Under the pieces are notes generated by a model, which had not been told where the DNA came from, made no database searches, and saw only the letters and a list, made by a program, of their open reading frames with translations. The position numbers and the translations under genes are program-made. This document shows, piece after piece, positions 7,276-43,960 of a DNA stretch of 64,000 nucleotides. How positions within the stretch are numbered: the first letter of the stretch is position 1; every line of letters starts with the position of its first letter. The DNA comes from Bryopsis sp. KO-2023 (Eukaryota > Chlorophyta > Ulvophyceae > Bryopsidales > Bryopsidaceae): the NCBI GenBank assembly GCA_030272585.1, contig BSYQ01000007.1:996001-1060000 (forward strand), written 5' to 3'.

Positions 7276-7763
7276 TGCTGATTTCGCAAATCCGATTGTT
7301 GGTTTGGTGAAATTCGAATTGGTTTGGGGTTGGGGTAGTCAGTTGTGGGATGCATGGGTCGTTTGAATGGGATGTGTTCCATCCCCCCCAAAAAAAAACA
7401 TGCCGATTCTGTGGATCTGGCTGGCTGGCCGGAATTATGGGAGGCCTTGGTTCATTGTCTCCTGTTTCAACGACCCCTGAAAGCGATCGAACAGGACGAA
7501 CGAACGTGTCTTCCAAAAAAGCACCAAACGAACAGGAAAAAAACACCAAAAACACGCAACCCTTACAAACAGGGAAAAAACACCAAAAACACGCAACCCT
7601 ATATATATAGTGCAGTGCTCACAACCACCCTAAAACAAATGAAAGGGGCTTCGTTGGTTGGGCCGCCCTTCTGGCCGGCCCAACAGGGAAACAGGGAATA
7701 AACTCCAGGCGCTCGCACACTATTGTGTGAGGAGCAGCAATTGGGCTGATCATCACCAACCAA

Positions 7764-8433
7764 TCAACAACAGTGTTCTCCGCCGCCACCGCCGCCACCT
7801 CCGTGTTTTCCACCTCCACCTCCACCTCCTCCGCCGCCGCCGCCTCCACCCCCACCTCCGAACTTTCCTCCTCCACCTCCACCGCCACTTCCACCGCCGC
7901 CGCCACCGCCGCCTCTTGCCAGCAGCATGCGGCTCACTGCACAGCGAAAACAAAATCAGTCACCTAAAAAACAGGCCCATCTGGTGGGGAAGGCGTGGTG
8001 GACGTCACTTTTCGGGCACCCACTTTTTCTGTCGCCACTTTTTCGTCGTCCTCCTCCTCCTCCACCCCCGCCGCCTCCGCCGCCTCCGCCGCCACCTCCG
8101 AATTTTCCTCCTCCACCCCCACCTCCGCCGCCGCCGCCGCCTCCACCTCCACCTCCGAATTTTCCTCCTCCTCCGCCCCCACCTGCGCCTCCGCCGCCGC
8201 CACCACCTCCGTATTTGCCTCCATCTTCACCTGCAACGAGGAGACGACGCTCGTCTGGAACACACGCACAAGGCACGCTTCGTTCAGCCACCAAACAAAG
8301 AAACGCCGAAGGCAAGGGTGAAGCCACGGCCACAGCGAGTGCGAAGTGCCACGCCTGGCTCACCTGCGAAGGAAGCTTGCGCGGCAGCGACCACGAGGCC
8401 GAGCAGGAGCAGAGCAGCCACGGTTTTGACCAT
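7764..8433 (-). CDS. Secreted glycine-rich protein, array copy 1
   Basis: Exon 1 is 8364-8433 and encodes MVKTVAALLLLGLVVAAAQ-ASFA, a textbook signal peptide with an AQA cleavage motif. A 109-bp GT-AG intron (8255-8363, ending tgtgttccag) joins it in phase to exon 2 from 8254, which begins DERRLLVAGEDGGKYG. Then come K-Y, K-F and K-F pairs separated by G8-A-G7 and G17. A further segment on the same strand, 7764 to about 7936, continues the pattern (G8-S-G7, KF, G17, KH, G8) and ends EHCC-stop. Glycine codons use all four third bases, which suggests the protein pattern is selected. The exon 2/3 junction is unresolved: phase-1 donors exist after 8039, 8024 and 7964 for the acceptor at 7937. Without exon 3, exon 2 would stop at 7956 after a non-glycine tail (122 residues). 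The role is unknown; wall, matrix or adhesive protein is inference. Confidence 0.65.
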
Positions 8434-10453
8434 GATTGACGAATGCAGCAGCAGTTGTTGTTGTTGCTTTCGAAGAGGGAAGACGATCGCAAACGTTTCT
8501 GAACACGACGCTTCCAGGGCGCAATATGTAGGGAGATGGTCGACGCGACTCCGTGGGATCCCCAAAGCCCTCTCGCGAGCCAAGCAAGCGCGCGCCAGGT
8601 GTGCCAGCCCGAGTCTTGGATGACGATGATGATGATGAGGCTACTACCCCACGTGCAACACCCCCCCCAAAAAACACAGCAAAAATTGTGTGCACAAAAA
8701 AGACAAGGGGGCTGGTAGAGTGCGTTTGGGAAGACCAAGGACAGGAGGAGTGATTGCATTGCGTGGGTCGCTGTTTTAAAAAAAAACAAGCAAACGTGTT
8801 TTGGGGCAGGAACCAACCGTCCCGACACAACCCCGTGACCCCCTCTTTCTTTGGTTGCCCTTTTTCTTTTCGCTGTGTTGGCCTTTCTCTGTCATATTTA
8901 TGGCGTTTGTTTCGTTGGGCTTCAGGTGACAGGGGTTCACTTCACACTTCCTTCAAGTGTTTTAATTTCCAGGCTTCCTGTCCATTGTTTGTGGCTTGAA
9001 TGATGAATGGTATGTTCTGGCAGTTAACAGGACTTGTCCACACAAAGGACAGCTGAGCTGAGGGACAGCAGTTTACAGTACTTGGGATCGATTCCTGTGT
9101 TTCAATTCAGTTCAGTTACGCCCGTTATTGCCCCAATCAAAGCTGGCTGTCCCGTGAAACACAGCCCAGGCAAAACAATGGCAGTTCTATGGCCCCTGCA
9201 AAATCCGAACTCGAAAATGTGTAACTGAGCCTGCAACGCCTCCCGCCTGTGTCCAAGCAATTCAGGATTACCATTCCAAACTCCCCGAGCTAGAAAACCC
9301 AAGACAAAACATCGGGTTTTGACTCATTTCTATTTTGCTATTTCTATTTTTTTTTTAATTATGGTTTTGACAAGTCGAAGAAACTCTTCGACTTCGTTTG
9401 AAAGAAAGACTGCAGAAGCCGAGGCAGGTTGAGGGCTGCTGCTCTTTGTTGTGTGAAAATGAAAAAAATGTGGAGAGTAGGATTCGTACCCCCGCCGAAT
9501 CGTAATCCTAGTCGCGACGATCCACTCTACGGACCCGGTCAGAATTGTTCTCCACGATCCATGTGAACACCAATTCCATATGTAACTTGCTTCAAAAACC
9601 CCAAGACCTCTCAAACGCCACTTCCGCGGCGTTTCTTCTTTTGCTGCATTCTGCCTGGTACCTTGAGTTCCTACTTTACTTTTCTATTATTTTTGATGGA
9701 TGCTGGCAGCTCTTTCTATCCAGACATTTTCTTGGCTTTCCTTCCTTCCCGTTTGCTCACACTTCAGGTTCGGCTGATAACAACACATCACACCGCCCGA
9801 CACTCACCCCTGACCGGCCAGCGGTGCGAGTCAGTCTGGCATGAAGCGCTGACGTCAACAACCGCCAGTCAACCAGGGGAGGCGAGGCGGAGAGGCCACA
9901 CAGATTGGATTTGCGAACATGGGCAGCCATGTCCGACCGACCTGTGAGGCAGCAAGCCACCTTCCTGCTGATTTCGCAAATCCGATTGTTGGTTTGGTGA
10001 AATTCGAATTGGTTTGGGGTTGGGGTAGTCAGTTGTGGGATGCATGGGTCGTTTGAATGGGATGTGTTCCATCCCCCCCAAAAAAAAACATGCCGATTCT
10101 GTGGATCTGGCTGGCTGGCCGGAATTATGGGAGGCCTTGGTTCATTGTCTCCTGTTTCAACGACCCCTGAAAGCGATCGAACAGGACGAACGAACGTGTC
10201 TTCCAAAAAAGCACCAAACGAACAGGAAAAAAACACCAAAAACACGCAACCCTTACAAACAGGGAAAAAACACCAAAAACACGCAACCCTATATATATAG
10301 TGCAGTGCTCACAACCACCCTAAAACAAATGAAAGGGGCTTCGTTGGTTGGGCCGCCCTTCTGGCCGGCCCAACAGGGAAACAGGGAATAAACTCCAGGC
10401 GCTCGCACACTATTGTGTGAGGAGCAGCAATTGGGCTGATCATCACCAACCAA
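8434..10453. other. Spacer between gene copies within the unit (repeated in every full copy)
   Basis: The first few hundred bases upstream of the ATG, to about 8711, are shared by all 14 copies, including the truncated last one, so they must contain any promoter common to all. The likely 5' untranslated leader reads CAACAACAACTGCTGCTGC just before the ATG on the minus strand. The rest holds the tRNA-like cassette and short open frames without protein character. Confidence 0.5.
9462..9535 (-). other. tRNA-like Pol III cassette in the repeat unit (first copy)
   Basis: Read on the minus strand, a box-A-like TAGAGTGGATCG (9529-9518) is followed by a box-B-like GGTACGAATCC (9490-9480), one base from the GGTTCGAATCC consensus, and then a T7 run (9468-9462) that could act as a Pol III terminator. 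The two parts GTAGAGT and ACTCTCC could pair as an acceptor stem, but the body is about 10 nt too short and no clean anticodon arm forms. It is probably a degenerate tRNA or a tRNA-derived RNA gene. The same cassette recurs every 2690 bp up to about 41742-41815. Confidence 0.35.
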
Positions 10454-11123
10454 TCAACAACAGTGTTCTCCGCCGCCACCGCCGCCACCTCCGTGTTTTC
10501 CACCTCCACCTCCACCTCCTCCGCCGCCGCCGCCTCCACCCCCACCTCCGAACTTTCCTCCTCCACCTCCACCGCCACTTCCACCGCCGCCGCCACCGCC
10601 GCCTCTTGCCAGCAGCATGCGGCTCACTGCACAGCGAAAACAAAATCAGTCACCTAAAAAACAGGCCCATCTGGTGGGGAAGGCGTGGTGGACGTCACTT
10701 TTCGGGCACCCACTTTTTCTGTCGCCACTTTTTCGTCGTCCTCCTCCTCCTCCACCCCCGCCGCCTCCGCCGCCTCCGCCGCCACCTCCGAATTTTCCTC
10801 CTCCACCCCCACCTCCGCCGCCGCCGCCGCCTCCACCTCCACCTCCGAATTTTCCTCCTCCTCCGCCCCCACCTGCGCCTCCGCCGCCGCCACCACCTCC
10901 GTATTTGCCTCCATCTTCACCTGCAACGAGGAGACGACGCTCGTCTGGAACACACGCACAAGGCACGCTTCGTTCAGCCACCAAACAAAGAAACGCCGAA
11001 GGCAAGGGTGAAGCCACGGCCACAGCGAGTGCGAAGTGCCACGCCTGGCTCACCTGCGAAGGAAGCTTGCGCGGCAGCGACCACGAGGCCGAGCAGGAGC
11101 AGAGCAGCCACGGTTTTGACCAT
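10454..11123 (-). CDS. Secreted glycine-rich protein, array copy 2
   Basis: Same sequence and exon structure as copy 1, shifted by 2690 bp: exon 1 is 11054-11123, exon 2 starts at 10944, and the EHCC stop is at 10454. Confidence 0.62.
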
Positions 11124-13143
11124 GATTGACGAATGCAGCAGCAGTTGTTGTTGTTGCTTTCGAAGAGGGAAGACGATCGCAAACGTTTCTGAACACGACG
11201 CTTCCAGGGCGCAATATGTAGGGAGATGGTCGACGCGACTCCGTGGGATCCCCAAAGCCCTCTCGCGAGCCAAGCAAGCGCGCGCCAGGTGTGCCAGCCC
11301 GAGTCTTGGATGACGATGATGATGATGAGGCTACTACCCCACGTGCAACACCCCCCCCAAAAAACACAGCAAAAATTGTGTGCACAAAAAAGACAAGGGG
11401 GCTGGTAGAGTGCGTTTGGGAAGACCAAGGACAGGAGGAGTGATTGCATTGCGTGGGTCGCTGTTTTAAAAAAAAACAAGCAAACGTGTTTTGGGGCAGG
11501 AACCAACCGTCCCGACACAACCCCGTGACCCCCTCTTTCTTTGGTTGCCCTTTTTCTTTTCGCTGTGTTGGCCTTTCTCTGTCATATTTATGGCGTTTGT
11601 TTCGTTGGGCTTCAGGTGACAGGGGTTCACTTCACACTTCCTTCAAGTGTTTTAATTTCCAGGCTTCCTGTCCATTGTTTGTGGCTTGAATGATGAATGG
11701 TATGTTCTGGCAGTTAACAGGACTTGTCCACACAAAGGACAGCTGAGCTGAGGGACAGCAGTTTACAGTACTTGGGATCGATTCCTGTGTTTCAATTCAG
11801 TTCAGTTACGCCCGTTATTGCCCCAATCAAAGCTGGCTGTCCCGTGAAACACAGCCCAGGCAAAACAATGGCAGTTCTATGGCCCCTGCAAAATCCGAAC
11901 TCGAAAATGTGTAACTGAGCCTGCAACGCCTCCCGCCTGTGTCCAAGCAATTCAGGATTACCATTCCAAACTCCCCGAGCTAGAAAACCCAAGACAAAAC
12001 ATCGGGTTTTGACTCATTTCTATTTTGCTATTTCTATTTTTTTTTTAATTATGGTTTTGACAAGTCGAAGAAACTCTTCGACTTCGTTTGAAAGAAAGAC
12101 TGCAGAAGCCGAGGCAGGTTGAGGGCTGCTGCTCTTTGTTGTGTGAAAATGAAAAAAATGTGGAGAGTAGGATTCGTACCCCCGCCGAATCGTAATCCTA
12201 GTCGCGACGATCCACTCTACGGACCCGGTCAGAATTGTTCTCCACGATCCATGTGAACACCAATTCCATATGTAACTTGCTTCAAAAACCCCAAGACCTC
12301 TCAAACGCCACTTCCGCGGCGTTTCTTCTTTTGCTGCATTCTGCCTGGTACCTTGAGTTCCTACTTTACTTTTCTATTATTTTTGATGGATGCTGGCAGC
12401 TCTTTCTATCCAGACATTTTCTTGGCTTTCCTTCCTTCCCGTTTGCTCACACTTCAGGTTCGGCTGATAACAACACATCACACCGCCCGACACTCACCCC
12501 TGACCGGCCAGCGGTGCGAGTCAGTCTGGCATGAAGCGCTGACGTCAACAACCGCCAGTCAACCAGGGGAGGCGAGGCGGAGAGGCCACACAGATTGGAT
12601 TTGCGAACATGGGCAGCCATGTCCGACCGACCTGTGAGGCAGCAAGCCACCTTCCTGCTGATTTCGCAAATCCGATTGTTGGTTTGGTGAAATTCGAATT
12701 GGTTTGGGGTTGGGGTAGTCAGTTGTGGGATGCATGGGTCGTTTGAATGGGATGTGTTCCATCCCCCCCAAAAAAAAACATGCCGATTCTGTGGATCTGG
12801 CTGGCTGGCCGGAATTATGGGAGGCCTTGGTTCATTGTCTCCTGTTTCAACGACCCCTGAAAGCGATCGAACAGGACGAACGAACGTGTCTTCCAAAAAA
12901 GCACCAAACGAACAGGAAAAAAACACCAAAAACACGCAACCCTTACAAACAGGGAAAAAACACCAAAAACACGCAACCCTATATATATAGTGCAGTGCTC
13001 ACAACCACCCTAAAACAAATGAAAGGGGCTTCGTTGGTTGGGCCGCCCTTCTGGCCGGCCCAACAGGGAAACAGGGAATAAACTCCAGGCGCTCGCACAC
13101 TATTGTGTGAGGAGCAGCAATTGGGCTGATCATCACCAACCAA

Positions 13144-13813
13144 TCAACAACAGTGTTCTCCGCCGCCACCGCCGCCACCTCCGTGTTTTCCACCTCCACC
13201 TCCACCTCCTCCGCCGCCGCCGCCTCCACCCCCACCTCCGAACTTTCCTCCTCCACCTCCACCGCCACTTCCACCGCCGCCGCCACCGCCGCCTCTTGCC
13301 AGCAGCATGCGGCTCACTGCACAGCGAAAACAAAATCAGTCACCTAAAAAACAGGCCCATCTGGTGGGGAAGGCGTGGTGGACGTCACTTTTCGGGCACC
13401 CACTTTTTCTGTCGCCACTTTTTCGTCGTCCTCCTCCTCCTCCACCCCCGCCGCCTCCGCCGCCTCCGCCGCCACCTCCGAATTTTCCTCCTCCACCCCC
13501 ACCTCCGCCGCCGCCGCCGCCTCCACCTCCACCTCCGAATTTTCCTCCTCCTCCGCCCCCACCTGCGCCTCCGCCGCCGCCACCACCTCCGTATTTGCCT
13601 CCATCTTCACCTGCAACGAGGAGACGACGCTCGTCTGGAACACACGCACAAGGCACGCTTCGTTCAGCCACCAAACAAAGAAACGCCGAAGGCAAGGGTG
13701 AAGCCACGGCCACAGCGAGTGCGAAGTGCCACGCCTGGCTCACCTGCGAAGGAAGCTTGCGCGGCAGCGACCACGAGGCCGAGCAGGAGCAGAGCAGCCA
13801 CGGTTTTGACCAT
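13144..13813 (-). CDS. Secreted glycine-rich protein, array copy 3
   Basis: Identical to copy 1: exon 1 is 13744-13813, exon 2 starts at 13634, and the terminal stop is at 13144. Confidence 0.62.
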
Positions 13814-15833
13814 GATTGACGAATGCAGCAGCAGTTGTTGTTGTTGCTTTCGAAGAGGGAAGACGATCGCAAACGTTTCTGAACACGACGCTTCCAGGGC
13901 GCAATATGTAGGGAGATGGTCGACGCGACTCCGTGGGATCCCCAAAGCCCTCTCGCGAGCCAAGCAAGCGCGCGCCAGGTGTGCCAGCCCGAGTCTTGGA
14001 TGACGATGATGATGATGAGGCTACTACCCCACGTGCAACACCCCCCCCAAAAAACACAGCAAAAATTGTGTGCACAAAAAAGACAAGGGGGCTGGTAGAG
14101 TGCGTTTGGGAAGACCAAGGACAGGAGGAGTGATTGCATTGCGTGGGTCGCTGTTTTAAAAAAAAACAAGCAAACGTGTTTTGGGGCAGGAACCAACCGT
14201 CCCGACACAACCCCGTGACCCCCTCTTTCTTTGGTTGCCCTTTTTCTTTTCGCTGTGTTGGCCTTTCTCTGTCATATTTATGGCGTTTGTTTCGTTGGGC
14301 TTCAGGTGACAGGGGTTCACTTCACACTTCCTTCAAGTGTTTTAATTTCCAGGCTTCCTGTCCATTGTTTGTGGCTTGAATGATGAATGGTATGTTCTGG
14401 CAGTTAACAGGACTTGTCCACACAAAGGACAGCTGAGCTGAGGGACAGCAGTTTACAGTACTTGGGATCGATTCCTGTGTTTCAATTCAGTTCAGTTACG
14501 CCCGTTATTGCCCCAATCAAAGCTGGCTGTCCCGTGAAACACAGCCCAGGCAAAACAATGGCAGTTCTATGGCCCCTGCAAAATCCGAACTCGAAAATGT
14601 GTAACTGAGCCTGCAACGCCTCCCGCCTGTGTCCAAGCAATTCAGGATTACCATTCCAAACTCCCCGAGCTAGAAAACCCAAGACAAAACATCGGGTTTT
14701 GACTCATTTCTATTTTGCTATTTCTATTTTTTTTTTAATTATGGTTTTGACAAGTCGAAGAAACTCTTCGACTTCGTTTGAAAGAAAGACTGCAGAAGCC
14801 GAGGCAGGTTGAGGGCTGCTGCTCTTTGTTGTGTGAAAATGAAAAAAATGTGGAGAGTAGGATTCGTACCCCCGCCGAATCGTAATCCTAGTCGCGACGA
14901 TCCACTCTACGGACCCGGTCAGAATTGTTCTCCACGATCCATGTGAACACCAATTCCATATGTAACTTGCTTCAAAAACCCCAAGACCTCTCAAACGCCA
15001 CTTCCGCGGCGTTTCTTCTTTTGCTGCATTCTGCCTGGTACCTTGAGTTCCTACTTTACTTTTCTATTATTTTTGATGGATGCTGGCAGCTCTTTCTATC
15101 CAGACATTTTCTTGGCTTTCCTTCCTTCCCGTTTGCTCACACTTCAGGTTCGGCTGATAACAACACATCACACCGCCCGACACTCACCCCTGACCGGCCA
15201 GCGGTGCGAGTCAGTCTGGCATGAAGCGCTGACGTCAACAACCGCCAGTCAACCAGGGGAGGCGAGGCGGAGAGGCCACACAGATTGGATTTGCGAACAT
15301 GGGCAGCCATGTCCGACCGACCTGTGAGGCAGCAAGCCACCTTCCTGCTGATTTCGCAAATCCGATTGTTGGTTTGGTGAAATTCGAATTGGTTTGGGGT
15401 TGGGGTAGTCAGTTGTGGGATGCATGGGTCGTTTGAATGGGATGTGTTCCATCCCCCCCAAAAAAAAACATGCCGATTCTGTGGATCTGGCTGGCTGGCC
15501 GGAATTATGGGAGGCCTTGGTTCATTGTCTCCTGTTTCAACGACCCCTGAAAGCGATCGAACAGGACGAACGAACGTGTCTTCCAAAAAAGCACCAAACG
15601 AACAGGAAAAAAACACCAAAAACACGCAACCCTTACAAACAGGGAAAAAACACCAAAAACACGCAACCCTATATATATAGTGCAGTGCTCACAACCACCC
15701 TAAAACAAATGAAAGGGGCTTCGTTGGTTGGGCCGCCCTTCTGGCCGGCCCAACAGGGAAACAGGGAATAAACTCCAGGCGCTCGCACACTATTGTGTGA
15801 GGAGCAGCAATTGGGCTGATCATCACCAACCAA

Positions 15834-16503
15834 TCAACAACAGTGTTCTCCGCCGCCACCGCCGCCACCTCCGTGTTTTCCACCTCCACCTCCACCTCCT
15901 CCGCCGCCGCCGCCTCCACCCCCACCTCCGAACTTTCCTCCTCCACCTCCACCGCCACTTCCACCGCCGCCGCCACCGCCGCCTCTTGCCAGCAGCATGC
16001 GGCTCACTGCACAGCGAAAACAAAATCAGTCACCTAAAAAACAGGCCCATCTGGTGGGGAAGGCGTGGTGGACGTCACTTTTCGGGCACCCACTTTTTCT
16101 GTCGCCACTTTTTCGTCGTCCTCCTCCTCCTCCACCCCCGCCGCCTCCGCCGCCTCCGCCGCCACCTCCGAATTTTCCTCCTCCACCCCCACCTCCGCCG
16201 CCGCCGCCGCCTCCACCTCCACCTCCGAATTTTCCTCCTCCTCCGCCCCCACCTGCGCCTCCGCCGCCGCCACCACCTCCGTATTTGCCTCCATCTTCAC
16301 CTGCAACGAGGAGACGACGCTCGTCTGGAACACACGCACAAGGCACGCTTCGTTCAGCCACCAAACAAAGAAACGCCGAAGGCAAGGGTGAAGCCACGGC
16401 CACAGCGAGTGCGAAGTGCCACGCCTGGCTCACCTGCGAAGGAAGCTTGCGCGGCAGCGACCACGAGGCCGAGCAGGAGCAGAGCAGCCACGGTTTTGAC
16501 CAT
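15834..16503 (-). CDS. Secreted glycine-rich protein, array copy 4
   Basis: Identical to copy 1: exon 1 is 16434-16503, exon 2 starts at 16324, and the terminal stop is at 15834. Confidence 0.62.
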
Positions 16504-18523
16504 GATTGACGAATGCAGCAGCAGTTGTTGTTGTTGCTTTCGAAGAGGGAAGACGATCGCAAACGTTTCTGAACACGACGCTTCCAGGGCGCAATATGTA
16601 GGGAGATGGTCGACGCGACTCCGTGGGATCCCCAAAGCCCTCTCGCGAGCCAAGCAAGCGCGCGCCAGGTGTGCCAGCCCGAGTCTTGGATGACGATGAT
16701 GATGATGAGGCTACTACCCCACGTGCAACACCCCCCCCAAAAAACACAGCAAAAATTGTGTGCACAAAAAAGACAAGGGGGCTGGTAGAGTGCGTTTGGG
16801 AAGACCAAGGACAGGAGGAGTGATTGCATTGCGTGGGTCGCTGTTTTAAAAAAAAACAAGCAAACGTGTTTTGGGGCAGGAACCAACCGTCCCGACACAA
16901 CCCCGTGACCCCCTCTTTCTTTGGTTGCCCTTTTTCTTTTCGCTGTGTTGGCCTTTCTCTGTCATATTTATGGCGTTTGTTTCGTTGGGCTTCAGGTGAC
17001 AGGGGTTCACTTCACACTTCCTTCAAGTGTTTTAATTTCCAGGCTTCCTGTCCATTGTTTGTGGCTTGAATGATGAATGGTATGTTCTGGCAGTTAACAG
17101 GACTTGTCCACACAAAGGACAGCTGAGCTGAGGGACAGCAGTTTACAGTACTTGGGATCGATTCCTGTGTTTCAATTCAGTTCAGTTACGCCCGTTATTG
17201 CCCCAATCAAAGCTGGCTGTCCCGTGAAACACAGCCCAGGCAAAACAATGGCAGTTCTATGGCCCCTGCAAAATCCGAACTCGAAAATGTGTAACTGAGC
17301 CTGCAACGCCTCCCGCCTGTGTCCAAGCAATTCAGGATTACCATTCCAAACTCCCCGAGCTAGAAAACCCAAGACAAAACATCGGGTTTTGACTCATTTC
17401 TATTTTGCTATTTCTATTTTTTTTTTAATTATGGTTTTGACAAGTCGAAGAAACTCTTCGACTTCGTTTGAAAGAAAGACTGCAGAAGCCGAGGCAGGTT
17501 GAGGGCTGCTGCTCTTTGTTGTGTGAAAATGAAAAAAATGTGGAGAGTAGGATTCGTACCCCCGCCGAATCGTAATCCTAGTCGCGACGATCCACTCTAC
17601 GGACCCGGTCAGAATTGTTCTCCACGATCCATGTGAACACCAATTCCATATGTAACTTGCTTCAAAAACCCCAAGACCTCTCAAACGCCACTTCCGCGGC
17701 GTTTCTTCTTTTGCTGCATTCTGCCTGGTACCTTGAGTTCCTACTTTACTTTTCTATTATTTTTGATGGATGCTGGCAGCTCTTTCTATCCAGACATTTT
17801 CTTGGCTTTCCTTCCTTCCCGTTTGCTCACACTTCAGGTTCGGCTGATAACAACACATCACACCGCCCGACACTCACCCCTGACCGGCCAGCGGTGCGAG
17901 TCAGTCTGGCATGAAGCGCTGACGTCAACAACCGCCAGTCAACCAGGGGAGGCGAGGCGGAGAGGCCACACAGATTGGATTTGCGAACATGGGCAGCCAT
18001 GTCCGACCGACCTGTGAGGCAGCAAGCCACCTTCCTGCTGATTTCGCAAATCCGATTGTTGGTTTGGTGAAATTCGAATTGGTTTGGGGTTGGGGTAGTC
18101 AGTTGTGGGATGCATGGGTCGTTTGAATGGGATGTGTTCCATCCCCCCCAAAAAAAAACATGCCGATTCTGTGGATCTGGCTGGCTGGCCGGAATTATGG
18201 GAGGCCTTGGTTCATTGTCTCCTGTTTCAACGACCCCTGAAAGCGATCGAACAGGACGAACGAACGTGTCTTCCAAAAAAGCACCAAACGAACAGGAAAA
18301 AAACACCAAAAACACGCAACCCTTACAAACAGGGAAAAAACACCAAAAACACGCAACCCTATATATATAGTGCAGTGCTCACAACCACCCTAAAACAAAT
18401 GAAAGGGGCTTCGTTGGTTGGGCCGCCCTTCTGGCCGGCCCAACAGGGAAACAGGGAATAAACTCCAGGCGCTCGCACACTATTGTGTGAGGAGCAGCAA
18501 TTGGGCTGATCATCACCAACCAA

Positions 18524-19193
18524 TCAACAACAGTGTTCTCCGCCGCCACCGCCGCCACCTCCGTGTTTTCCACCTCCACCTCCACCTCCTCCGCCGCCGC
18601 CGCCTCCACCCCCACCTCCGAACTTTCCTCCTCCACCTCCACCGCCACTTCCACCGCCGCCGCCACCGCCGCCTCTTGCCAGCAGCATGCGGCTCACTGC
18701 ACAGCGAAAACAAAATCAGTCACCTAAAAAACAGGCCCATCTGGTGGGGAAGGCGTGGTGGACGTCACTTTTCGGGCACCCACTTTTTCTGTCGCCACTT
18801 TTTCGTCGTCCTCCTCCTCCTCCACCCCCGCCGCCTCCGCCGCCTCCGCCGCCACCTCCGAATTTTCCTCCTCCACCCCCACCTCCGCCGCCGCCGCCGC
18901 CTCCACCTCCACCTCCGAATTTTCCTCCTCCTCCGCCCCCACCTGCGCCTCCGCCGCCGCCACCACCTCCGTATTTGCCTCCATCTTCACCTGCAACGAG
19001 GAGACGACGCTCGTCTGGAACACACGCACAAGGCACGCTTCGTTCAGCCACCAAACAAAGAAACGCCGAAGGCAAGGGTGAAGCCACGGCCACAGCGAGT
19101 GCGAAGTGCCACGCCTGGCTCACCTGCGAAGGAAGCTTGCGCGGCAGCGACCACGAGGCCGAGCAGGAGCAGAGCAGCCACGGTTTTGACCAT
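18524..19193 (-). CDS. Secreted glycine-rich protein, array copy 5
   Basis: The gene is identical to copy 1 (exon 1 19124-19193, exon 2 from 19014). Its upstream spacer carries the A to G variant at 20169, 976 bp before the start codon. Confidence 0.62.
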
Positions 19194-21213
19194 GATTGAC
19201 GAATGCAGCAGCAGTTGTTGTTGTTGCTTTCGAAGAGGGAAGACGATCGCAAACGTTTCTGAACACGACGCTTCCAGGGCGCAATATGTAGGGAGATGGT
19301 CGACGCGACTCCGTGGGATCCCCAAAGCCCTCTCGCGAGCCAAGCAAGCGCGCGCCAGGTGTGCCAGCCCGAGTCTTGGATGACGATGATGATGATGAGG
19401 CTACTACCCCACGTGCAACACCCCCCCCAAAAAACACAGCAAAAATTGTGTGCACAAAAAAGACAAGGGGGCTGGTAGAGTGCGTTTGGGAAGACCAAGG
19501 ACAGGAGGAGTGATTGCATTGCGTGGGTCGCTGTTTTAAAAAAAAACAAGCAAACGTGTTTTGGGGCAGGAACCAACCGTCCCGACACAACCCCGTGACC
19601 CCCTCTTTCTTTGGTTGCCCTTTTTCTTTTCGCTGTGTTGGCCTTTCTCTGTCATATTTATGGCGTTTGTTTCGTTGGGCTTCAGGTGACAGGGGTTCAC
19701 TTCACACTTCCTTCAAGTGTTTTAATTTCCAGGCTTCCTGTCCATTGTTTGTGGCTTGAATGATGAATGGTATGTTCTGGCAGTTAACAGGACTTGTCCA
19801 CACAAAGGACAGCTGAGCTGAGGGACAGCAGTTTACAGTACTTGGGATCGATTCCTGTGTTTCAATTCAGTTCAGTTACGCCCGTTATTGCCCCAATCAA
19901 AGCTGGCTGTCCCGTGAAACACAGCCCAGGCAAAACAATGGCAGTTCTATGGCCCCTGCAAAATCCGAACTCGAAAATGTGTAACTGAGCCTGCAACGCC
20001 TCCCGCCTGTGTCCAAGCAATTCAGGATTACCATTCCAAACTCCCCGAGCTAGAAAACCCAAGACAAAACATCGGGTTTTGACTCATTTCTATTTTGCTA
20101 TTTCTATTTTTTTTTTAATTATGGTTTTGACAAGTCGAAGAAACTCTTCGACTTCGTTTGAAAGAAAGGCTGCAGAAGCCGAGGCAGGTTGAGGGCTGCT
20201 GCTCTTTGTTGTGTGAAAATGAAAAAAATGTGGAGAGTAGGATTCGTACCCCCGCCGAATCGTAATCCTAGTCGCGACGATCCACTCTACGGACCCGGTC
20301 AGAATTGTTCTCCACGATCCATGTGAACACCAATTCCATATGTAACTTGCTTCAAAAACCCCAAGACCTCTCAAACGCCACTTCCGCGGCGTTTCTTCTT
20401 TTGCTGCATTCTGCCTGGTACCTTGAGTTCCTACTTTACTTTTCTATTATTTTTGATGGATGCTGGCAGCTCTTTCTATCCAGACATTTTCTTGGCTTTC
20501 CTTCCTTCCCGTTTGCTCACACTTCAGGTTCGGCTGATAACAACACATCACACCGCCCGACACTCACCCCTGACCGGCCAGCGGTGCGAGTCAGTCTGGC
20601 ATGAAGCGCTGACGTCAACAACCGCCAGTCAACCAGGGGAGGCGAGGCGGAGAGGCCACACAGATTGGATTTGCGAACATGGGCAGCCATGTCCGACCGA
20701 CCTGTGAGGCAGCAAGCCACCTTCCTGCTGATTTCGCAAATCCGATTGTTGGTTTGGTGAAATTCGAATTGGTTTGGGGTTGGGGTAGTCAGTTGTGGGA
20801 TGCATGGGTCGTTTGAATGGGATGTGTTCCATCCCCCCCAAAAAAAAACATGCCGATTCTGTGGATCTGGCTGGCTGGCCGGAATTATGGGAGGCCTTGG
20901 TTCATTGTCTCCTGTTTCAACGACCCCTGAAAGCGATCGAACAGGACGAACGAACGTGTCTTCCAAAAAAGCACCAAACGAACAGGAAAAAAACACCAAA
21001 AACACGCAACCCTTACAAACAGGGAAAAAACACCAAAAACACGCAACCCTATATATATAGTGCAGTGCTCACAACCACCCTAAAACAAATGAAAGGGGCT
21101 TCGTTGGTTGGGCCGCCCTTCTGGCCGGCCCAACAGGGAAACAGGGAATAAACTCCAGGCGCTCGCACACTATTGTGTGAGGAGCAGCAATTGGGCTGAT
21201 CATCACCAACCAA

Positions 21214-21883
21214 TCAACAACAGTGTTCTCCGCCGCCACCGCCGCCACCTCCGTGTTTTCCACCTCCACCTCCACCTCCTCCGCCGCCGCCGCCTCCACC
21301 CCCACCTCCGAACTTTCCTCCTCCACCTCCACCGCCACTTCCACCGCCGCCGCCACCGCCGCCTCTTGCCAGCAGCATGCGGCTCACTGCACAGCGAAAA
21401 CAAAATCAGTCACCTAAAAAACAGGCCCATCTGGTGGGGAAGGCGTGGTGGACGTCACTTTTCGGGCACCCACTTTTTCTGTCGCCACTTTTTCGTCGTC
21501 CTCCTCCTCCTCCACCCCCGCCGCCTCCGCCGCCTCCGCCGCCACCTCCGAATTTTCCTCCTCCACCCCCACCTCCGCCGCCGCCGCCGCCTCCACCTCC
21601 ACCTCCGAATTTTCCTCCTCCTCCGCCCCCACCTGCGCCTCCGCCGCCGCCACCACCTCCGTATTTGCCTCCATCTTCACCTGCAACGAGGAGACGACGC
21701 TCGTCTGGAACACACGCACAAGGCACGCTTCGTTCAGCCACCAAACAAAGAAACGCCGAAGGCAAGGGTGAAGCCACGGCCACAGCGAGTGCGAAGTGCC
21801 ACGCCTGGCTCACCTGCGAAGGAAGCTTGCGCGGCAGCGACCACGAGGCCGAGCAGGAGCAGAGCAGCCACGGTTTTGACCAT
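21214..21883 (-). CDS. Secreted glycine-rich protein, array copy 6
   Basis: The gene is identical to copy 1 (exon 1 21814-21883, exon 2 from 21704). Its upstream spacer shares with copy 5 the A to G variant, here at 22859. Confidence 0.62.
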
Positions 21884-23903
21884 GATTGACGAATGCAGCA
21901 GCAGTTGTTGTTGTTGCTTTCGAAGAGGGAAGACGATCGCAAACGTTTCTGAACACGACGCTTCCAGGGCGCAATATGTAGGGAGATGGTCGACGCGACT
22001 CCGTGGGATCCCCAAAGCCCTCTCGCGAGCCAAGCAAGCGCGCGCCAGGTGTGCCAGCCCGAGTCTTGGATGACGATGATGATGATGAGGCTACTACCCC
22101 ACGTGCAACACCCCCCCCAAAAAACACAGCAAAAATTGTGTGCACAAAAAAGACAAGGGGGCTGGTAGAGTGCGTTTGGGAAGACCAAGGACAGGAGGAG
22201 TGATTGCATTGCGTGGGTCGCTGTTTTAAAAAAAAACAAGCAAACGTGTTTTGGGGCAGGAACCAACCGTCCCGACACAACCCCGTGACCCCCTCTTTCT
22301 TTGGTTGCCCTTTTTCTTTTCGCTGTGTTGGCCTTTCTCTGTCATATTTATGGCGTTTGTTTCGTTGGGCTTCAGGTGACAGGGGTTCACTTCACACTTC
22401 CTTCAAGTGTTTTAATTTCCAGGCTTCCTGTCCATTGTTTGTGGCTTGAATGATGAATGGTATGTTCTGGCAGTTAACAGGACTTGTCCACACAAAGGAC
22501 AGCTGAGCTGAGGGACAGCAGTTTACAGTACTTGGGATCGATTCCTGTGTTTCAATTCAGTTCAGTTACGCCCGTTATTGCCCCAATCAAAGCTGGCTGT
22601 CCCGTGAAACACAGCCCAGGCAAAACAATGGCAGTTCTATGGCCCCTGCAAAATCCGAACTCGAAAATGTGTAACTGAGCCTGCAACGCCTCCCGCCTGT
22701 GTCCAAGCAATTCAGGATTACCATTCCAAACTCCCCGAGCTAGAAAACCCAAGACAAAACATCGGGTTTTGACTCATTTCTATTTTGCTATTTCTATTTT
22801 TTTTTTAATTATGGTTTTGACAAGTCGAAGAAACTCTTCGACTTCGTTTGAAAGAAAGGCTGCAGAAGCCGAGGCAGGTTGAGGGCTGCTGCTCTTTGTT
22901 GTGTGAAAATGAAAAAAATGTGGAGAGTAGGATTCGTACCCCCGCCGAATCGTAATCCTAGTCGCGACGATCCACTCTACGGACCCGGTCAGAATTGTTC
23001 TCCACGATCCATGTGAACACCAATTCCATATGTAACTTGCTTCAAAAACCCCAAGACCTCTCAAACGCCACTTCCGCGGCGTTTCTTCTTTTGCTGCATT
23101 CTGCCTGGTACCTTGAGTTCCTACTTTACTTTTCTATTATTTTTGATGGATGCTGGCAGCTCTTTCTATCCAGACATTTTCTTGGCTTTCCTTCCTTCCC
23201 GTTTGCTCACACTTCAGGTTCGGCTGATAACAACACATCACACCGCCCGACACTCACCCCTGACCGGCCAGCGGTGCGAGTCAGTCTGGCATGAAGCGCT
23301 GACGTCAACAACCGCCAGTCAACCAGGGGAGGCGAGGCGGAGAGGCCACACAGATTGGATTTGCGAACATGGGCAGCCATGTCCGACCGACCTGTGAGGC
23401 AGCAAGCCACCTTCCTGCTGATTTCGCAAATCCGATTGTTGGTTTGGTGAAATTCGAATTGGTTTGGGGTTGGGGTAGTCAGTTGTGGGATGCATGGGTC
23501 GTTTGAATGGGATGTGTTCCATCCCCCCCAAAAAAAAACATGCCGATTCTGTGGATCTGGCTGGCTGGCCGGAATTATGGGAGGCCTTGGTTCATTGTCT
23601 CCTGTTTCAACGACCCCTGAAAGCGATCGAACAGGACGAACGAACGTGTCTTCCAAAAAAGCACCAAACGAACAGGAAAAAAACACCAAAAACACGCAAC
23701 CCTTACAAACAGGGAAAAAACACCAAAAACACGCAACCCTATATATATAGTGCAGTGCTCACAACCACCCTAAAACAAATGAAAGGGGCTTCGTTGGTTG
23801 GGCCGCCCTTCTGGCCGGCCCAACAGGGAAACAGGGAATAAACTCCAGGCGCTCGCACACTATTGTGTGAGGAGCAGCAATTGGGCTGATCATCACCAAC
23901 CAA

Positions 23904-24573
23904 TCAACAACAGTGTTCTCCGCCGCCACCGCCGCCACCTCCGTGTTTTCCACCTCCACCTCCACCTCCTCCGCCGCCGCCGCCTCCACCCCCACCTCCG
24001 AACTTTCCTCCTCCACCTCCACCGCCACTTCCACCGCCGCCGCCACCGCCGCCTCTTGCCAGCAGCATGCGGCTCACTGCACAGCGAAAACAAAATCAGT
24101 CACCTAAAAAACAGGCCCATCTGGTGGGGAAGGCGTGGTGGACGTCACTTTTCGGGCACCCACTTTTTCTGTCGCCACTTTTTCGTCGTCCTCCTCCTCC
24201 TCCACCCCCGCCGCCTCCGCCGCCTCCGCCGCCACCTCCGAATTTTCCTCCTCCACCCCCACCTCCGCCGCCGCCGCCGCCTCCACCTCCACCTCCGAAT
24301 TTTCCTCCTCCTCCGCCCCCACCTGCGCCTCCGCCGCCGCCACCACCTCCGTATTTGCCTCCATCTTCACCTGCAACGAGGAGACGACGCTCGTCTGGAA
24401 CACACGCACAAGGCACGCTTCGTTCAGCCACCAAACAAAGAAACGCCGAAGGCAAGGGTGAAGCCACGGCCACAGCGAGTGCGAAGTGCCACGCCTGGCT
24501 CACCTGCGAAGGAAGCTTGCGCGGCAGCGACCACGAGGCCGAGCAGGAGCAGAGCAGCCACGGTTTTGACCAT
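23904..24573 (-). CDS. Secreted glycine-rich protein, array copy 7
   Basis: Identical to copy 1: exon 1 is 24504-24573, exon 2 starts at 24394, and the terminal stop is at 23904. Confidence 0.62.
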
Positions 24574-26593
24574 GATTGACGAATGCAGCAGCAGTTGTTG
24601 TTGTTGCTTTCGAAGAGGGAAGACGATCGCAAACGTTTCTGAACACGACGCTTCCAGGGCGCAATATGTAGGGAGATGGTCGACGCGACTCCGTGGGATC
24701 CCCAAAGCCCTCTCGCGAGCCAAGCAAGCGCGCGCCAGGTGTGCCAGCCCGAGTCTTGGATGACGATGATGATGATGAGGCTACTACCCCACGTGCAACA
24801 CCCCCCCCAAAAAACACAGCAAAAATTGTGTGCACAAAAAAGACAAGGGGGCTGGTAGAGTGCGTTTGGGAAGACCAAGGACAGGAGGAGTGATTGCATT
24901 GCGTGGGTCGCTGTTTTAAAAAAAAACAAGCAAACGTGTTTTGGGGCAGGAACCAACCGTCCCGACACAACCCCGTGACCCCCTCTTTCTTTGGTTGCCC
25001 TTTTTCTTTTCGCTGTGTTGGCCTTTCTCTGTCATATTTATGGCGTTTGTTTCGTTGGGCTTCAGGTGACAGGGGTTCACTTCACACTTCCTTCAAGTGT
25101 TTTAATTTCCAGGCTTCCTGTCCATTGTTTGTGGCTTGAATGATGAATGGTATGTTCTGGCAGTTAACAGGACTTGTCCACACAAAGGACAGCTGAGCTG
25201 AGGGACAGCAGTTTACAGTACTTGGGATCGATTCCTGTGTTTCAATTCAGTTCAGTTACGCCCGTTATTGCCCCAATCAAAGCTGGCTGTCCCGTGAAAC
25301 ACAGCCCAGGCAAAACAATGGCAGTTCTATGGCCCCTGCAAAATCCGAACTCGAAAATGTGTAACTGAGCCTGCAACGCCTCCCGCCTGTGTCCAAGCAA
25401 TTCAGGATTACCATTCCAAACTCCCCGAGCTAGAAAACCCAAGACAAAACATCGGGTTTTGACTCATTTCTATTTTGCTATTTCTATTTTTTTTTTAATT
25501 ATGGTTTTGACAAGTCGAAGAAACTCTTCGACTTCGTTTGAAAGAAAGACTGCAGAAGCCGAGGCAGGTTGAGGGCTGCTGCTCTTTGTTGTGTGAAAAT
25601 GAAAAAAATGTGGAGAGTAGGATTCGTACCCCCGCCGAATCGTAATCCTAGTCGCGACGATCCACTCTACGGACCCGGTCAGAATTGTTCTCCACGATCC
25701 ATGTGAACACCAATTCCATATGTAACTTGCTTCAAAAACCCCAAGACCTCTCAAACGCCACTTCCGCGGCGTTTCTTCTTTTGCTGCATTCTGCCTGGTA
25801 CCTTGAGTTCCTACTTTACTTTTCTATTATTTTTGATGGATGCTGGCAGCTCTTTCTATCCAGACATTTTCTTGGCTTTCCTTCCTTCCCGTTTGCTCAC
25901 ACTTCAGGTTCGGCTGATAACAACACATCACACCGCCCGACACTCACCCCTGACCGGCCAGCGGTGCGAGTCAGTCTGGCATGAAGCGCTGACGTCAACA
26001 ACCGCCAGTCAACCAGGGGAGGCGAGGCGGAGAGGCCACACAGATTGGATTTGCGAACATGGGCAGCCATGTCCGACCGACCTGTGAGGCAGCAAGCCAC
26101 CTTCCTGCTGATTTCGCAAATCCGATTGTTGGTTTGGTGAAATTCGAATTGGTTTGGGGTTGGGGTAGTCAGTTGTGGGATGCATGGGTCGTTTGAATGG
26201 GATGTGTTCCATCCCCCCCAAAAAAAAACATGCCGATTCTGTGGATCTGGCTGGCTGGCCGGAATTATGGGAGGCCTTGGTTCATTGTCTCCTGTTTCAA
26301 CGACCCCTGAAAGCGATCGAACAGGACGAACGAACGTGTCTTCCAAAAAAGCACCAAACGAACAGGAAAAAAACACCAAAAACACGCAACCCTTACAAAC
26401 AGGGAAAAAACACCAAAAACACGCAACCCTATATATATAGTGCAGTGCTCACAACCACCCTAAAACAAATGAAAGGGGCTTCGTTGGTTGGGCCGCCCTT
26501 CTGGCCGGCCCAACAGGGAAACAGGGAATAAACTCCAGGCGCTCGCACACTATTGTGTGAGGAGCAGCAATTGGGCTGATCATCACCAACCAA

Positions 26594-27263
26594 TCAACAA
26601 CAGTGTTCTCCGCCGCCACCGCCGCCACCTCCGTGTTTTCCACCTCCACCTCCACCTCCTCCGCCGCCGCCGCCTCCACCCCCACCTCCGAACTTTCCTC
26701 CTCCACCTCCACCGCCACTTCCACCGCCGCCGCCACCGCCGCCTCTTGCCAGCAGCATGCGGCTCACTGCACAGCGAAAACAAAATCAGTCACCTAAAAA
26801 ACAGGCCCATCTGGTGGGGAAGGCGTGGTGGACGTCACTTTTCGGGCACCCACTTTTTCTGTCGCCACTTTTTCGTCGTCCTCCTCCTCCTCCACCCCCG
26901 CCGCCTCCGCCGCCTCCGCCGCCACCTCCGAATTTTCCTCCTCCACCCCCACCTCCGCCGCCGCCGCCGCCTCCACCTCCACCTCCGAATTTTCCTCCTC
27001 CTCCGCCCCCACCTGCGCCTCCGCCGCCGCCACCACCTCCGTATTTGCCTCCATCTTCACCTGCAACGAGGAGACGACGCTCGTCTGGAACACACGCACA
27101 AGGCACGCTTCGTTCAGCCACCAAACAAAGAAACGCCGAAGGCAAGGGTGAAGCCACGGCCACAGCGAGTGCGAAGTGCCACGCCTGGCTCACCTGCGAA
27201 GGAAGCTTGCGCGGCAGCGACCACGAGGCCGAGCAGGAGCAGAGCAGCCACGGTTTTGACCAT
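26594..27263 (-). CDS. Secreted glycine-rich protein, array copy 8
   Basis: Identical to copy 1: exon 1 is 27194-27263, exon 2 starts at 27084, and the terminal stop is at 26594. Confidence 0.62.
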
Positions 27264-29283
27264 GATTGACGAATGCAGCAGCAGTTGTTGTTGTTGCTTT
27301 CGAAGAGGGAAGACGATCGCAAACGTTTCTGAACACGACGCTTCCAGGGCGCAATATGTAGGGAGATGGTCGACGCGACTCCGTGGGATCCCCAAAGCCC
27401 TCTCGCGAGCCAAGCAAGCGCGCGCCAGGTGTGCCAGCCCGAGTCTTGGATGACGATGATGATGATGAGGCTACTACCCCACGTGCAACACCCCCCCCAA
27501 AAAACACAGCAAAAATTGTGTGCACAAAAAAGACAAGGGGGCTGGTAGAGTGCGTTTGGGAAGACCAAGGACAGGAGGAGTGATTGCATTGCGTGGGTCG
27601 CTGTTTTAAAAAAAAACAAGCAAACGTGTTTTGGGGCAGGAACCAACCGTCCCGACACAACCCCGTGACCCCCTCTTTCTTTGGTTGCCCTTTTTCTTTT
27701 CGCTGTGTTGGCCTTTCTCTGTCATATTTATGGCGTTTGTTTCGTTGGGCTTCAGGTGACAGGGGTTCACTTCACACTTCCTTCAAGTGTTTTAATTTCC
27801 AGGCTTCCTGTCCATTGTTTGTGGCTTGAATGATGAATGGTATGTTCTGGCAGTTAACAGGACTTGTCCACACAAAGGACAGCTGAGCTGAGGGACAGCA
27901 GTTTACAGTACTTGGGATCGATTCCTGTGTTTCAATTCAGTTCAGTTACGCCCGTTATTGCCCCAATCAAAGCTGGCTGTCCCGTGAAACACAGCCCAGG
28001 CAAAACAATGGCAGTTCTATGGCCCCTGCAAAATCCGAACTCGAAAATGTGTAACTGAGCCTGCAACGCCTCCCGCCTGTGTCCAAGCAATTCAGGATTA
28101 CCATTCCAAACTCCCCGAGCTAGAAAACCCAAGACAAAACATCGGGTTTTGACTCATTTCTATTTTGCTATTTCTATTTTTTTTTTAATTATGGTTTTGA
28201 CAAGTCGAAGAAACTCTTCGACTTCGTTTGAAAGAAAGACTGCAGAAGCCGAGGCAGGTTGAGGGCTGCTGCTCTTTGTTGTGTGAAAATGAAAAAAATG
28301 TGGAGAGTAGGATTCGTACCCCCGCCGAATCGTAATCCTAGTCGCGACGATCCACTCTACGGACCCGGTCAGAATTGTTCTCCACGATCCATGTGAACAC
28401 CAATTCCATATGTAACTTGCTTCAAAAACCCCAAGACCTCTCAAACGCCACTTCCGCGGCGTTTCTTCTTTTGCTGCATTCTGCCTGGTACCTTGAGTTC
28501 CTACTTTACTTTTCTATTATTTTTGATGGATGCTGGCAGCTCTTTCTATCCAGACATTTTCTTGGCTTTCCTTCCTTCCCGTTTGCTCACACTTCAGGTT
28601 CGGCTGATAACAACACATCACACCGCCCGACACTCACCCCTGACCGGCCAGCGGTGCGAGTCAGTCTGGCATGAAGCGCTGACGTCAACAACCGCCAGTC
28701 AACCAGGGGAGGCGAGGCGGAGAGGCCACACAGATTGGATTTGCGAACATGGGCAGCCATGTCCGACCGACCTGTGAGGCAGCAAGCCACCTTCCTGCTG
28801 ATTTCGCAAATCCGATTGTTGGTTTGGTGAAATTCGAATTGGTTTGGGGTTGGGGTAGTCAGTTGTGGGATGCATGGGTCGTTTGAATGGGATGTGTTCC
28901 ATCCCCCCCAAAAAAAAACATGCCGATTCTGTGGATCTGGCTGGCTGGCCGGAATTATGGGAGGCCTTGGTTCATTGTCTCCTGTTTCAACGACCCCTGA
29001 AAGCGATCGAACAGGACGAACGAACGTGTCTTCCAAAAAAGCACCAAACGAACAGGAAAAAAACACCAAAAACACGCAACCCTTACAAACAGGGAAAAAA
29101 CACCAAAAACACGCAACCCTATATATATAGTGCAGTGCTCACAACCACCCTAAAACAAATGAAAGGGGCTTCGTTGGTTGGGCCGCCCTTCTGGCCGGCC
29201 CAACAGGGAAACAGGGAATAAACTCCAGGCGCTCGCACACTATTGTGTGAGGAGCAGCAATTGGGCTGATCATCACCAACCAA

Positions 29284-29953
29284 TCAACAACAGTGTTCTC
29301 CGCCGCCACCGCCGCCACCTCCGTGTTTTCCACCTCCACCTCCACCTCCTCCGCCGCCGCCGCCTCCACCCCCACCTCCGAACTTTCCTCCTCCACCTCC
29401 ACCGCCACTTCCACCGCCGCCGCCACCGCCGCCTCTTGCCAGCAGCATGCGGCTCACTGCACAGCGAAAACAAAATCAGTCACCTAAAAAACAGGCCCAT
29501 CTGGTGGGGAAGGCGTGGTGGACGTCACTTTTCGGGCACCCACTTTTTCTGTCGCCACTTTTTCGTCGTCCTCCTCCTCCTCCACCCCCGCCGCCTCCGC
29601 CGCCTCCGCCGCCACCTCCGAATTTTCCTCCTCCACCCCCACCTCCGCCGCCGCCGCCGCCTCCACCTCCACCTCCGAATTTTCCTCCTCCTCCGCCCCC
29701 ACCTGCGCCTCCGCCGCCGCCACCACCTCCGTATTTGCCTCCATCTTCACCTGCAACGAGGAGACGACGCTCGTCTGGAACACACGCACAAGGCACGCTT
29801 CGTTCAGCCACCAAACAAAGAAACGCCGAAGGCAAGGGTGAAGCCACGGCCACAGCGAGTGCGAAGTGCCACGCCTGGCTCACCTGCGAAGGAAGCTTGC
29901 GCGGCAGCGACCACGAGGCCGAGCAGGAGCAGAGCAGCCACGGTTTTGACCAT
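29284..29953 (-). CDS. Secreted glycine-rich protein, array copy 9
   Basis: The gene is identical to copy 1 (exon 1 29884-29953, exon 2 from 29774). The unit differs at 30297 (T to A), 344 bp upstream of the start codon, a private marker for this copy. Confidence 0.62.
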
Positions 29954-43403: not shown

Positions 43404-43960
43404 GATTGACGAATGCAGCAGCAGTTGTTGTTGTTGCTTTCGAAGAGGGAAGACGATCGCAAACGTTTCTGAACACGACGCTTCCAGGGCGCAATATGTA
43501 GGGAGATGGTCGACGCGACTCCGTGGGATCCCCAAAGCCCTCTCGCGAGCCAAGCAAGCGCGCGCCAGGTGTGCCAGCCCGAGTCTTGGATGACGATGAT
43601 GATGATGAGGCTACTACCCCACGTGCAACACCCCCCCAAAAAAACACAGCAAAAATTGTGTGCACAAAAAAGACAAGGGGGTTGTCCGCTTCCAATTCGA
43701 AAGAATGCACAAACGAGCAATGAGAGGAGTTTGTGTCCTCTGAAAAACGTCCAAATGTTGACGACAAAAACAAAAGCCCATGTGTTCGACGCCACATGGC
43801 ACTATGGGAAAACCCGCTCTGTGCGGGGTTGGTCGAATCTCCGCCAAATATCGAAGAACGTCGAACTGACGAATTAAGACCCGAAACAGAACAGAAACGT
43901 ATCAGGAACGGTCGGATGTACCTGGGTTCGACTCCCAGGCGTTTCAATCCCCTTACAACT

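Follow-up and report, generated by a model that had tools for sequence, protein, structure and literature searches.

The window analysed here, a stretch of 64,000 nucleotides (C7:996001-1060000) of the 91.1-Mb, 28-contig genome of Bryopsis sp. KO-2023, contains a tandem array with one minus-strand gene in each 2,690-bp unit. Bryopsis is a siphonous green alga of the order Bryopsidales, in which the organism is a single giant cell. The window also carries a serine carboxypeptidase, which corresponds in the protein database to BSKO_07929 of the same strain (100% identity over 97% of the query); all its 498 residues can be read from the window, the coding sequence being interrupted by a single 235-nt intron of GT..AG type. 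The features of the array are the following, in window positions.

7276..43680, no strand assigned: tandem array of about 13.5 units with a period of 2690 bp, self-match at lag 2690; the right end (about 43,680) is approximate
8364..8433, minus strand: gene copy 1, exon 1 (70 nt), signal-peptide-like start with an AQA/S or SFA/D cleavage context
8255..8363, minus strand: copy 1, intron 1 (109 nt, phase 1, GTGAGC..TTCCAG), splice sites kept in paralogs
8024..8254, minus strand: copy 1, exon 2, (D)ERRLLVAGEDGGKY-G8-A-G7-KF-G17-KF-G17-RRKSGDRK
7937..8023, minus strand: copy 1, intron 2 (87 nt, phase 1, GTGGGT..GTGCAG), containing an in-frame stop at 7956-7958
7764..7936, minus strand: copy 1, exon 3 with stop, (M)SRMLLAR-G8-S-G7-KF-G17-KH-G8-EHCC
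10454..11123, minus strand: gene copy 2, identical DNA
13144..13813, minus strand: gene copy 3, identical DNA
15834..16503, minus strand: gene copy 4, identical DNA
18524..19193, minus strand: gene copy 5, identical DNA
21214..21883, minus strand: gene copy 6, identical DNA
23904..24573, minus strand: gene copy 7, identical DNA
26594..27263, minus strand: gene copy 8, identical DNA
29284..29953, minus strand: gene copy 9, identical DNA
31974..32643, minus strand: gene copy 10, identical DNA
34664..35333, minus strand: gene copy 11, identical DNA
37354..38023, minus strand: gene copy 12, identical DNA
40044..40713, minus strand: gene copy 13, identical DNA
42734..43403, minus strand: gene copy 14, identical DNA
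7750..8439, plus strand: open poly-Pro frame of 229 codons, antisense to the gene and regarded as a shadow of its GGN codons

In copy 1, the minus-strand ATG at 8433 opens a 23-residue hydrophobic signal-like start, MVKTVAALLLLGLVVAAAQASFA, which makes up exon 1 together with one further base. Judged by sequence features and conservation rather than by a dedicated predictor, the signal peptide given in a preliminary description of this DNA is supported, as is its 109-bp GT..AG intron at 8363-8255, in phase 1. The frame after this intron reads DERRLLVAGEDGGKY-G8-A-G7-KF-G17-KF-G17-RRKSGDRK and then meets the stop at 7956-7958. With intron 1 alone, the open reading frame (7956-8891) ends ..WACFLGD. 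A second intron, for which 8023-7937 is the best placement, is needed, because the one-intron frame stops before the second glycine segment and the EHCC terminus; the same description had indeed recognised the EHCC end, but reached it with a single intron. The borders of intron 2 are AAAA/GTGGGT and TTTTCGCTGTGCAG/TG, and its 3' end consists of CTGAT, a pyrimidine-rich stretch and CAG. The donor GTGGGT was picked by consensus, on inspection, among three in-phase GT candidates, and a few residues around SGDRK hinge on this choice.

Downstream of the stop of copy 1 on the minus strand, a hairpin, GTTGGGCCGGCCAGAAGGGCGGCCCAAC, lies at 7657-7684 (-23.2 kcal/mol over a 30-nt stretch). It is kept in seven of nine aligned loci of the same subfamily (A, defined below), once with a loop change, and is a possible 3'UTR element. 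TGTAA, the green-algal polyadenylation signal, occurs 160-196 nt past the stop in eight of ten A loci (the eight in which the stop motif was matched), 170-180 nt past it in five of seven loci of subfamily C and 384-425 nt past it in all five of subfamily B; given shared descent, these positions are weak evidence.

Thirteen full units of the array, compared in register, vary at two sites only, unit-1 positions 8777 and 9409, the first variant being found in one unit and the second in two neighbouring units. The DNA of the gene region is identical in all 14 copies (901 bp checked in each), which all read as one 157-residue protein. The copy-specific variants at the two sites of the unit, and the unique sequence on either side, speak against an array made purely by looping in the assembly; the copy number is that of the assembly. 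Near-identity of the 14 copies says nothing about selection. By eye, a diverged version of the right-hand 70 bp of the unit can be recognised immediately to the left of the array (7023-7097 compared with 9896-9966), and recombination between such 70-bp short repeats may have started the amplification or set its boundary. Elsewhere in the window, a 34/226-bp repeat rich in CCCCGCACACACAGAAGGAG occupies 47101-47573, and related CCCCGCACAG pieces are found at 44.0-44.9 kb. ARAGORN detected no tRNA in the window; the segment 9465-9545 looks tRNA-like by eye and was reported neither by ARAGORN nor by Rfam. Rfam gave no match at the gathering score over the whole window, and two matches at E<=1 for the array unit, both far under their gathering scores.

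The array is only part of a larger family. A DNA search of the same genome returned at least 75 stretches with a match, many of which belong to diverged copies. Exon-1 sites number at least 59 and fall into three subfamilies, at least 35 in A, at least 5 in B and at least 19 in C, so that the 14 genes described previously account for the array but undercount the family. The A sites comprise the 14 genes of the window, 12 in a second array (C7:745-800 kb) and 9 dispersed ones; 34 have the exact A exon-1 signature and one has a mismatch. A search for the exon-1 pattern with up to 3 mismatches gave 49 places, namely the 35 A sites, five on C9 (subfamily B) and 9 others with 2-3 mismatches, compared with 8 for the reversed control. 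Three identical exon-1-like places with 3 mismatches (C4:1887458, 1926693 and 2105642) and one further GKFG box in a glycine context (C8:313485-313507) could be further relatives or chance matches. The five B genes all lie on C9. As for C, its count of 19 excludes one C6 place reading a stop, and 12 of these sites alternate with A genes in the second tandem array (C7:743856-803319; L003-L008, L014, L053), which is built of units of about 4.5 kb with one A and one C gene each. Five stretches of this array are 99.67-100% identical to L006 (L007 over 2,901 bp only); 12 nt are absent from some stretches, and one unit, at 772.7-781.9 kb, is missing the A exon-1 signature.

Gene models could be examined at ten A-type loci, each array being counted once, so that the second array contributes a single model for its 12 A genes. 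Six of the ten keep the whole model with a terminal E[HDE]CC. The whole model is also kept at L012, without CC and with a rearranged exon 3; exon 3 is degenerate in L010a, L013 is broken, and L010c has lost its body after intron 1. An eleventh A locus, L049, has a truncated signal, and an A copy in L011 is without exon 1. From L010:7924 on (C7:1454423) lies a truncated A copy, whose intact exon 1 and intron 1 are followed by unrelated sequence. All five B genes give open two-exon models. Eight of the 19 C sites were read, and five of them yield full three-exon models (L010, L014, L011, L067, L068); for L069 the motifs applied gave none, and L070 and L071 appear to be truncated. Dispersed copies have up to about 2 kb in common, including the 3' flank, an observation that bears on a possible transposable-element nature of the gene.

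In the modelled loci of all three subfamilies, exon 1 measures 70 nt, intron 1 is in phase 1, the signal is hydrophobic with the invariant columns M-x-K...L..xLV..A, and the glycine runs are interrupted by basic or aromatic residues. Both A and C have a phase-1 intron 2 with a CAG/TG acceptor. As far as sequence comparison can tell, this common exon/intron architecture in three diverged subfamilies marks a family and is more than chance. The intron 2 of C, which begins with the standard donor GTAAGG, is also the best support for intron 2 in A. It bears on another reading of the array gene, namely a one-intron isoform that would stop inside intron 2 with the ending RRKSGDRKSGCPKSDVHHAFPTRWACFLGD, exon 3 being unused or belonging to another isoform. 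The intron-2 reading is indeed open up to 7956-7958, the A donor GTGGGT is imperfect with respect to the consensus, and the B proteins end at the equivalent point (GRRKGSGRRxDK). Such an isoform nevertheless looks very unlikely, given that the exon 3 frame and the C-terminal E[HDE]CC are kept in five other A loci, hence six with the window copy, that C shows the same phase and acceptor with a strong donor, and that the CTGAT..pyrimidine-rich..CAG 3' end is present.

A more general question is whether these frames code at all, since the repeats could be GGN/CCN minisatellites in a recently expanded segmental duplication, left by a decaying ancestral gene. Taken together, five A paralogs that are intact (arr4.5, L009, L010b, L016, L017) show 115 differences from the window copy in exons 2 and 3, with 102, 10 and 3 of them at codon positions 3, 1 and 2, in comparisons that share one reference and are not independent. 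The copies L013 and L010a, excluded as degenerate and serving as a rough control, have 44 of 67 and 33 of 73 differences at position 3, a lower share than in the intact copies; L012 was left out because of its rearranged exon 3 (19 of 34 at position 3). This third-position bias is supportive, not clean, because GGN slippage alone favours third positions. In the five paralogs, exon 2 and exon 3 have indels in multiples of three, except for 4 nt directly after the L017 stop, and the triplet rule is otherwise broken only in intron 1 of L017 and L012, which has gained 4+3 nt; the degenerate copies have non-triplet exon indels (-53, -4, -7). The triplet test is weak, because indels in the noncoding 150-bp flanks of the same five paralogs are mostly multiples of three as well (6, 9, 3+6; one of 2).

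Exon 1, compared in nine sequences, gives pS values of 0.33-0.45 against pN values of 0.22-0.25 between A and B (pN/pS about 0.5-0.8), which suggests weak constraint, and of 0.70-0.86 against 0.23-0.37 for A-C and B-C; within A no constraint is visible (window copy versus L010a: pS 0.10, pN 0.08). Upstream of the gene, A and B can be aligned with each other over the -150 to -51 region (31/49 and 31/45; nearer the ATG, 22/48), and the same region scores lower for A-C and B-C (17-21 of 45-46). The GKFG box is written AAG TTT on C9 and AAA/AAG TTC in A, so that K-F is kept in sense while the antisense changes from N-F to N-L. A search for this box returned 96 matches, against 2 for the control, with a pattern that demands K and F and is thus silent on their rate of change.

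Decay without function would account for the drifting spacer lengths and for the clearly broken copies (L013, L049, L010c, L070, L071 and exon 3 of L010a). Slippage alone would also produce part of the third-position bias and of the triplet indels, and no annotated protein was found. We nevertheless consider this explanation unlikely: six of the ten modelled A loci and five of the eight C loci read retain the frame, the signal, the two introns and the termini, all five B genes, in their two-exon form, retain the frame, signal and termini, and third positions take a larger share of the differences in intact copies than in degenerate ones. What is kept is only the frame and the type of residue, because the spacers drift by whole codons, through expansion and contraction at the DNA level. 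The earlier proposal that the protein sequence is preserved, as opposed to DNA slippage, is thus weakened and its spacing argument overstated, spacer lengths differing by whole codons between paralogs.

The strand had to be questioned as well, since poly-Pro and poly-Gly codons share their wobble base and conservation of GGN alone cannot separate the two strands. A plus-strand gene for a proline-rich (hydroxyproline-rich, extensin-like) wall protein, of which the glycine frame would be the shadow, could be imagined from the 229 codons open over the whole region, and frames of 198-263 codons are open in all seven non-degenerate A loci. None of these seven loci has a Met ahead of the Pro runs, the single M of the window copy being residue 60, and no signal-like start is seen on the plus strand. 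In subfamily C the Pro blocks lie in different frames; in B, four of the five genes show a single open Pro block devoid of Met, and a stop interrupts that of the fifth. The signal, the introns and the A-B upstream similarity are all on the minus strand, and a plus-strand gene is extremely improbable. A plus-strand hydroxyproline-rich glycoprotein was accordingly rejected as an identity, in A for want of a start codon ahead of the Pro blocks and of a signal, in B and C for want of a conserved frame. It has been proposed that in plant hybrid proline-rich proteins a Pro-rich region became Gly-rich by inversion (PMC2216038), and by analogy such an inversion could be the origin of the Bryopsis family too. 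The paralog comparison supports, through sequence features, the minus-strand, secreted and glycine-rich character assigned in the preliminary description.

The array protein consists of glycine runs with KY, KF, KF, KF and KH, and ends in EHCC. In one A, one B and one C protein, glycine makes up 68, 59 and 74% of the residues after the signal, the hydrophobic core reaches KD12 values of 3.05, 3.51 and 3.13 at residue 5, with an A-x-A context, and the mature chains have pI values of 10.2-10.6. The regular lysine-aromatic spacing noted previously holds in so far as basic/aromatic dipeptides recur in the family (KF, KY, KH, HWKW, RN), but the 17-Gly spacing belongs to this copy only: spacer length varies, single runs extend from G5 to G31 across the A set, and among the seven non-degenerate A loci the number of KF/KY in exon 2 lies between one and three. 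R-x-L-L motifs stand at exon starts (ERRLL, SRMLL, SRDLL, RKLL; in B, RRRLK), and the exons close with basic stretches (RRKSGDRK, RRKGSGRRxDK, KK, RK). R-x-L-L (RRLL, RMLL, RDLL, RKLL) follows the signal and recurs where exon 3 begins, and looks like a repeated leader or processing motif. The modelled proteins have at most two Cys; the terminal CC is found in six A loci only and is absent from L012 and from the B and C proteins shown.

Some of these features would also fit a secreted glycine-rich cationic defence peptide, or its precursor, cut at dibasic or R-x-L-L sites and binding microbial surfaces. The signal-like start, the pI near 10 and the R-x-L-L motifs at exon starts are compatible with it, as is a multi-copy family with no relative found elsewhere, the high copy number then meaning bulk supply. 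We regard this role as fairly unlikely: the array copies are identical instead of diversified, a disulphide scaffold is absent (at most two Cys in the modelled proteins), and very long pure glycine runs are unusual for defence peptides. The biology of the genus offers it a setting, with a membrane-free protoplast stage in seawater and with bryohealin, which is said to carry an antibiotic domain (PMC3252328).

Within the reach of the searches made, no relative was detected outside this genome. Signal/leader regions of A (139 candidates) and B (20 candidates) found no match at E<=1 among about 5.8 billion proteins, in a search that reaches relatives of 0.55-1.75 query length sharing a 5-residue word; the neighbouring carboxypeptidase is present in the same protein database, in which no member of the family was found. 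Pfam at E<=10 gave no family for one A and one B protein, nor did NCBIfam at E<=10 for the A protein. A sequence search of the PDB with the A protein returned 9 sequences at E<=1 (best 6.2e-05), molecules without evident relation, which were judged low-complexity glycine matches. No description of the family was found in the titles and abstract openings of the papers listed on Bryopsis and its genome, siphonous wound plugs, lectins and protoplasts, and glycine-rich proteins; those that combine Bryopsis with glycine-rich sequences were reviews on bioactive, marine or therapeutic peptides. Within these limits, the protein is undescribed, as first supposed, and the family is apparently unannotated and lineage-specific. 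Its kind, secreted glycine-rich material proteins, is known; its form, with long pure glycine runs, is unusual, and the family itself is apparently new.

Plant structural glycine-rich proteins (GRPs) are sorted into classes I and II. Like them, the Bryopsis proteins have a signal peptide followed by a very glycine-rich body with few other residues, and form multigene families; plant GRPs are wall material, which for Bryopsis would be a hypothesis. With class I they share the signal-like N-terminus and the Gly-dominated chain, but not the (GGX)n repeat, their runs being pure glycine up to G31 with sparse dipeptides. They also differ from plant GRPs by being algal, with no outside relative found, and by having neither a Cys-rich domain nor a Pfam match. 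Hybrid proline-rich proteins with a Gly-rich N-terminal domain (PMC2216038) resemble them in their repetitive glycine, the antisense of which reads poly-Pro, but have an eight-cysteine C-terminal domain where the Bryopsis protein has 2 Cys. Class II GRPs and hybrid proline-rich proteins were both rejected as identities, given the absence of a Cys-rich or eight-cysteine C-terminal domain and of a Pfam match.

Among animal products, polyglycine silks are secreted Gly-rich material proteins. Tick cement and other animal adhesive GRPs are likewise secreted, Gly-rich and multicopy, and are thought to harden outside the body (PMC2901319). No sequence relation was found to animal cement GRPs or polyglycine silks, which offer an analogy only. 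Closer to the organism, the bryohealin lectins (PMC3252328) are wound-response proteins of the same genus, and for the poly-Gly protein an extracellular sealing role is the hypothesis; bryohealin is a lectin, whereas the poly-Gly protein matches no Pfam family. A Bryopsis lectin or bryohealin was discarded as an identity, no carbohydrate-binding domain being found by Pfam at E<=10 in one A and one B protein.

From the sequence evidence as a whole, the reading to which we give slightly better than even confidence is that the array specifies a secreted poly-glycine protein of 157 residues, strongly basic, an extracellular structural protein amplified for dosage. The family is built of a signal peptide, short R-x-L-L-type leaders, long glycine runs, basic/aromatic dipeptides and basic ends. 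Once transcribed, the product would leave the cell by the secretory pathway, its glycine runs acting as flexible or polyglycine-type spacers, while the Lys/Arg-aromatic points and basic ends might bind acidic wall polysaccharide or each other. Cross-linking could proceed through Lys, Tyr and the terminal Cys-Cys, with CC disulphides in six A loci. A cross-linkable or self-assembling material is plausible as the leading function, and the place and time of action that we infer are those of a material for the wall, the holdfast or the wound plug. Dosage would be raised by the two independent arrays (14 genes at 2.69 kb; 12 at about 4.5 kb, together with C); they fit such a need, but could alternatively reflect neutral unequal crossing-over.

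Siphonous algae seal and rebuild their giant single cell within minutes to hours, which gives this structural reading a possible physiological frame. In Bryopsis, membrane-free protoplasts form and the wall is then re-made (PMC3252328), and the reference list of the same paper includes an older title on a B. hypnoides protein for wound healing. The wound plugs of siphonous algae first gel and later harden, and a protein cross-linker has been described in Dasycladus (PMC6278426). The link from these observations to the poly-Gly genes is a hypothesis. Its most specific form, distinctly unlikely as it stands, is that these genes specify the chief hardening protein in the wound plug of Bryopsis, or in the sheath around its extruded protoplasm: a secreted, polycationic polyglycine with Lys-aromatic and Cys-Cys points that would gel on meeting acidic polysaccharide and then be cross-linked, the two tandem amplifications having been driven by selection for instant bulk supply.

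The family may be an example of genes missed by annotation because of their resemblance to simple repeats, and for materials research it provides polyglycine spacers in a naturally graded set of lengths. In the wound literature consulted, no protein part of the Bryopsis wound material is defined beyond lectins. The signal peptide, exons and copy map of the gene family make the question of a wall, holdfast or plug role directly testable. If the wound-plug reading were true, Bryopsis would possess a lineage-specific material protein based on a polyglycine-spacer principle unlike that of extensins or GGX-type GRPs.
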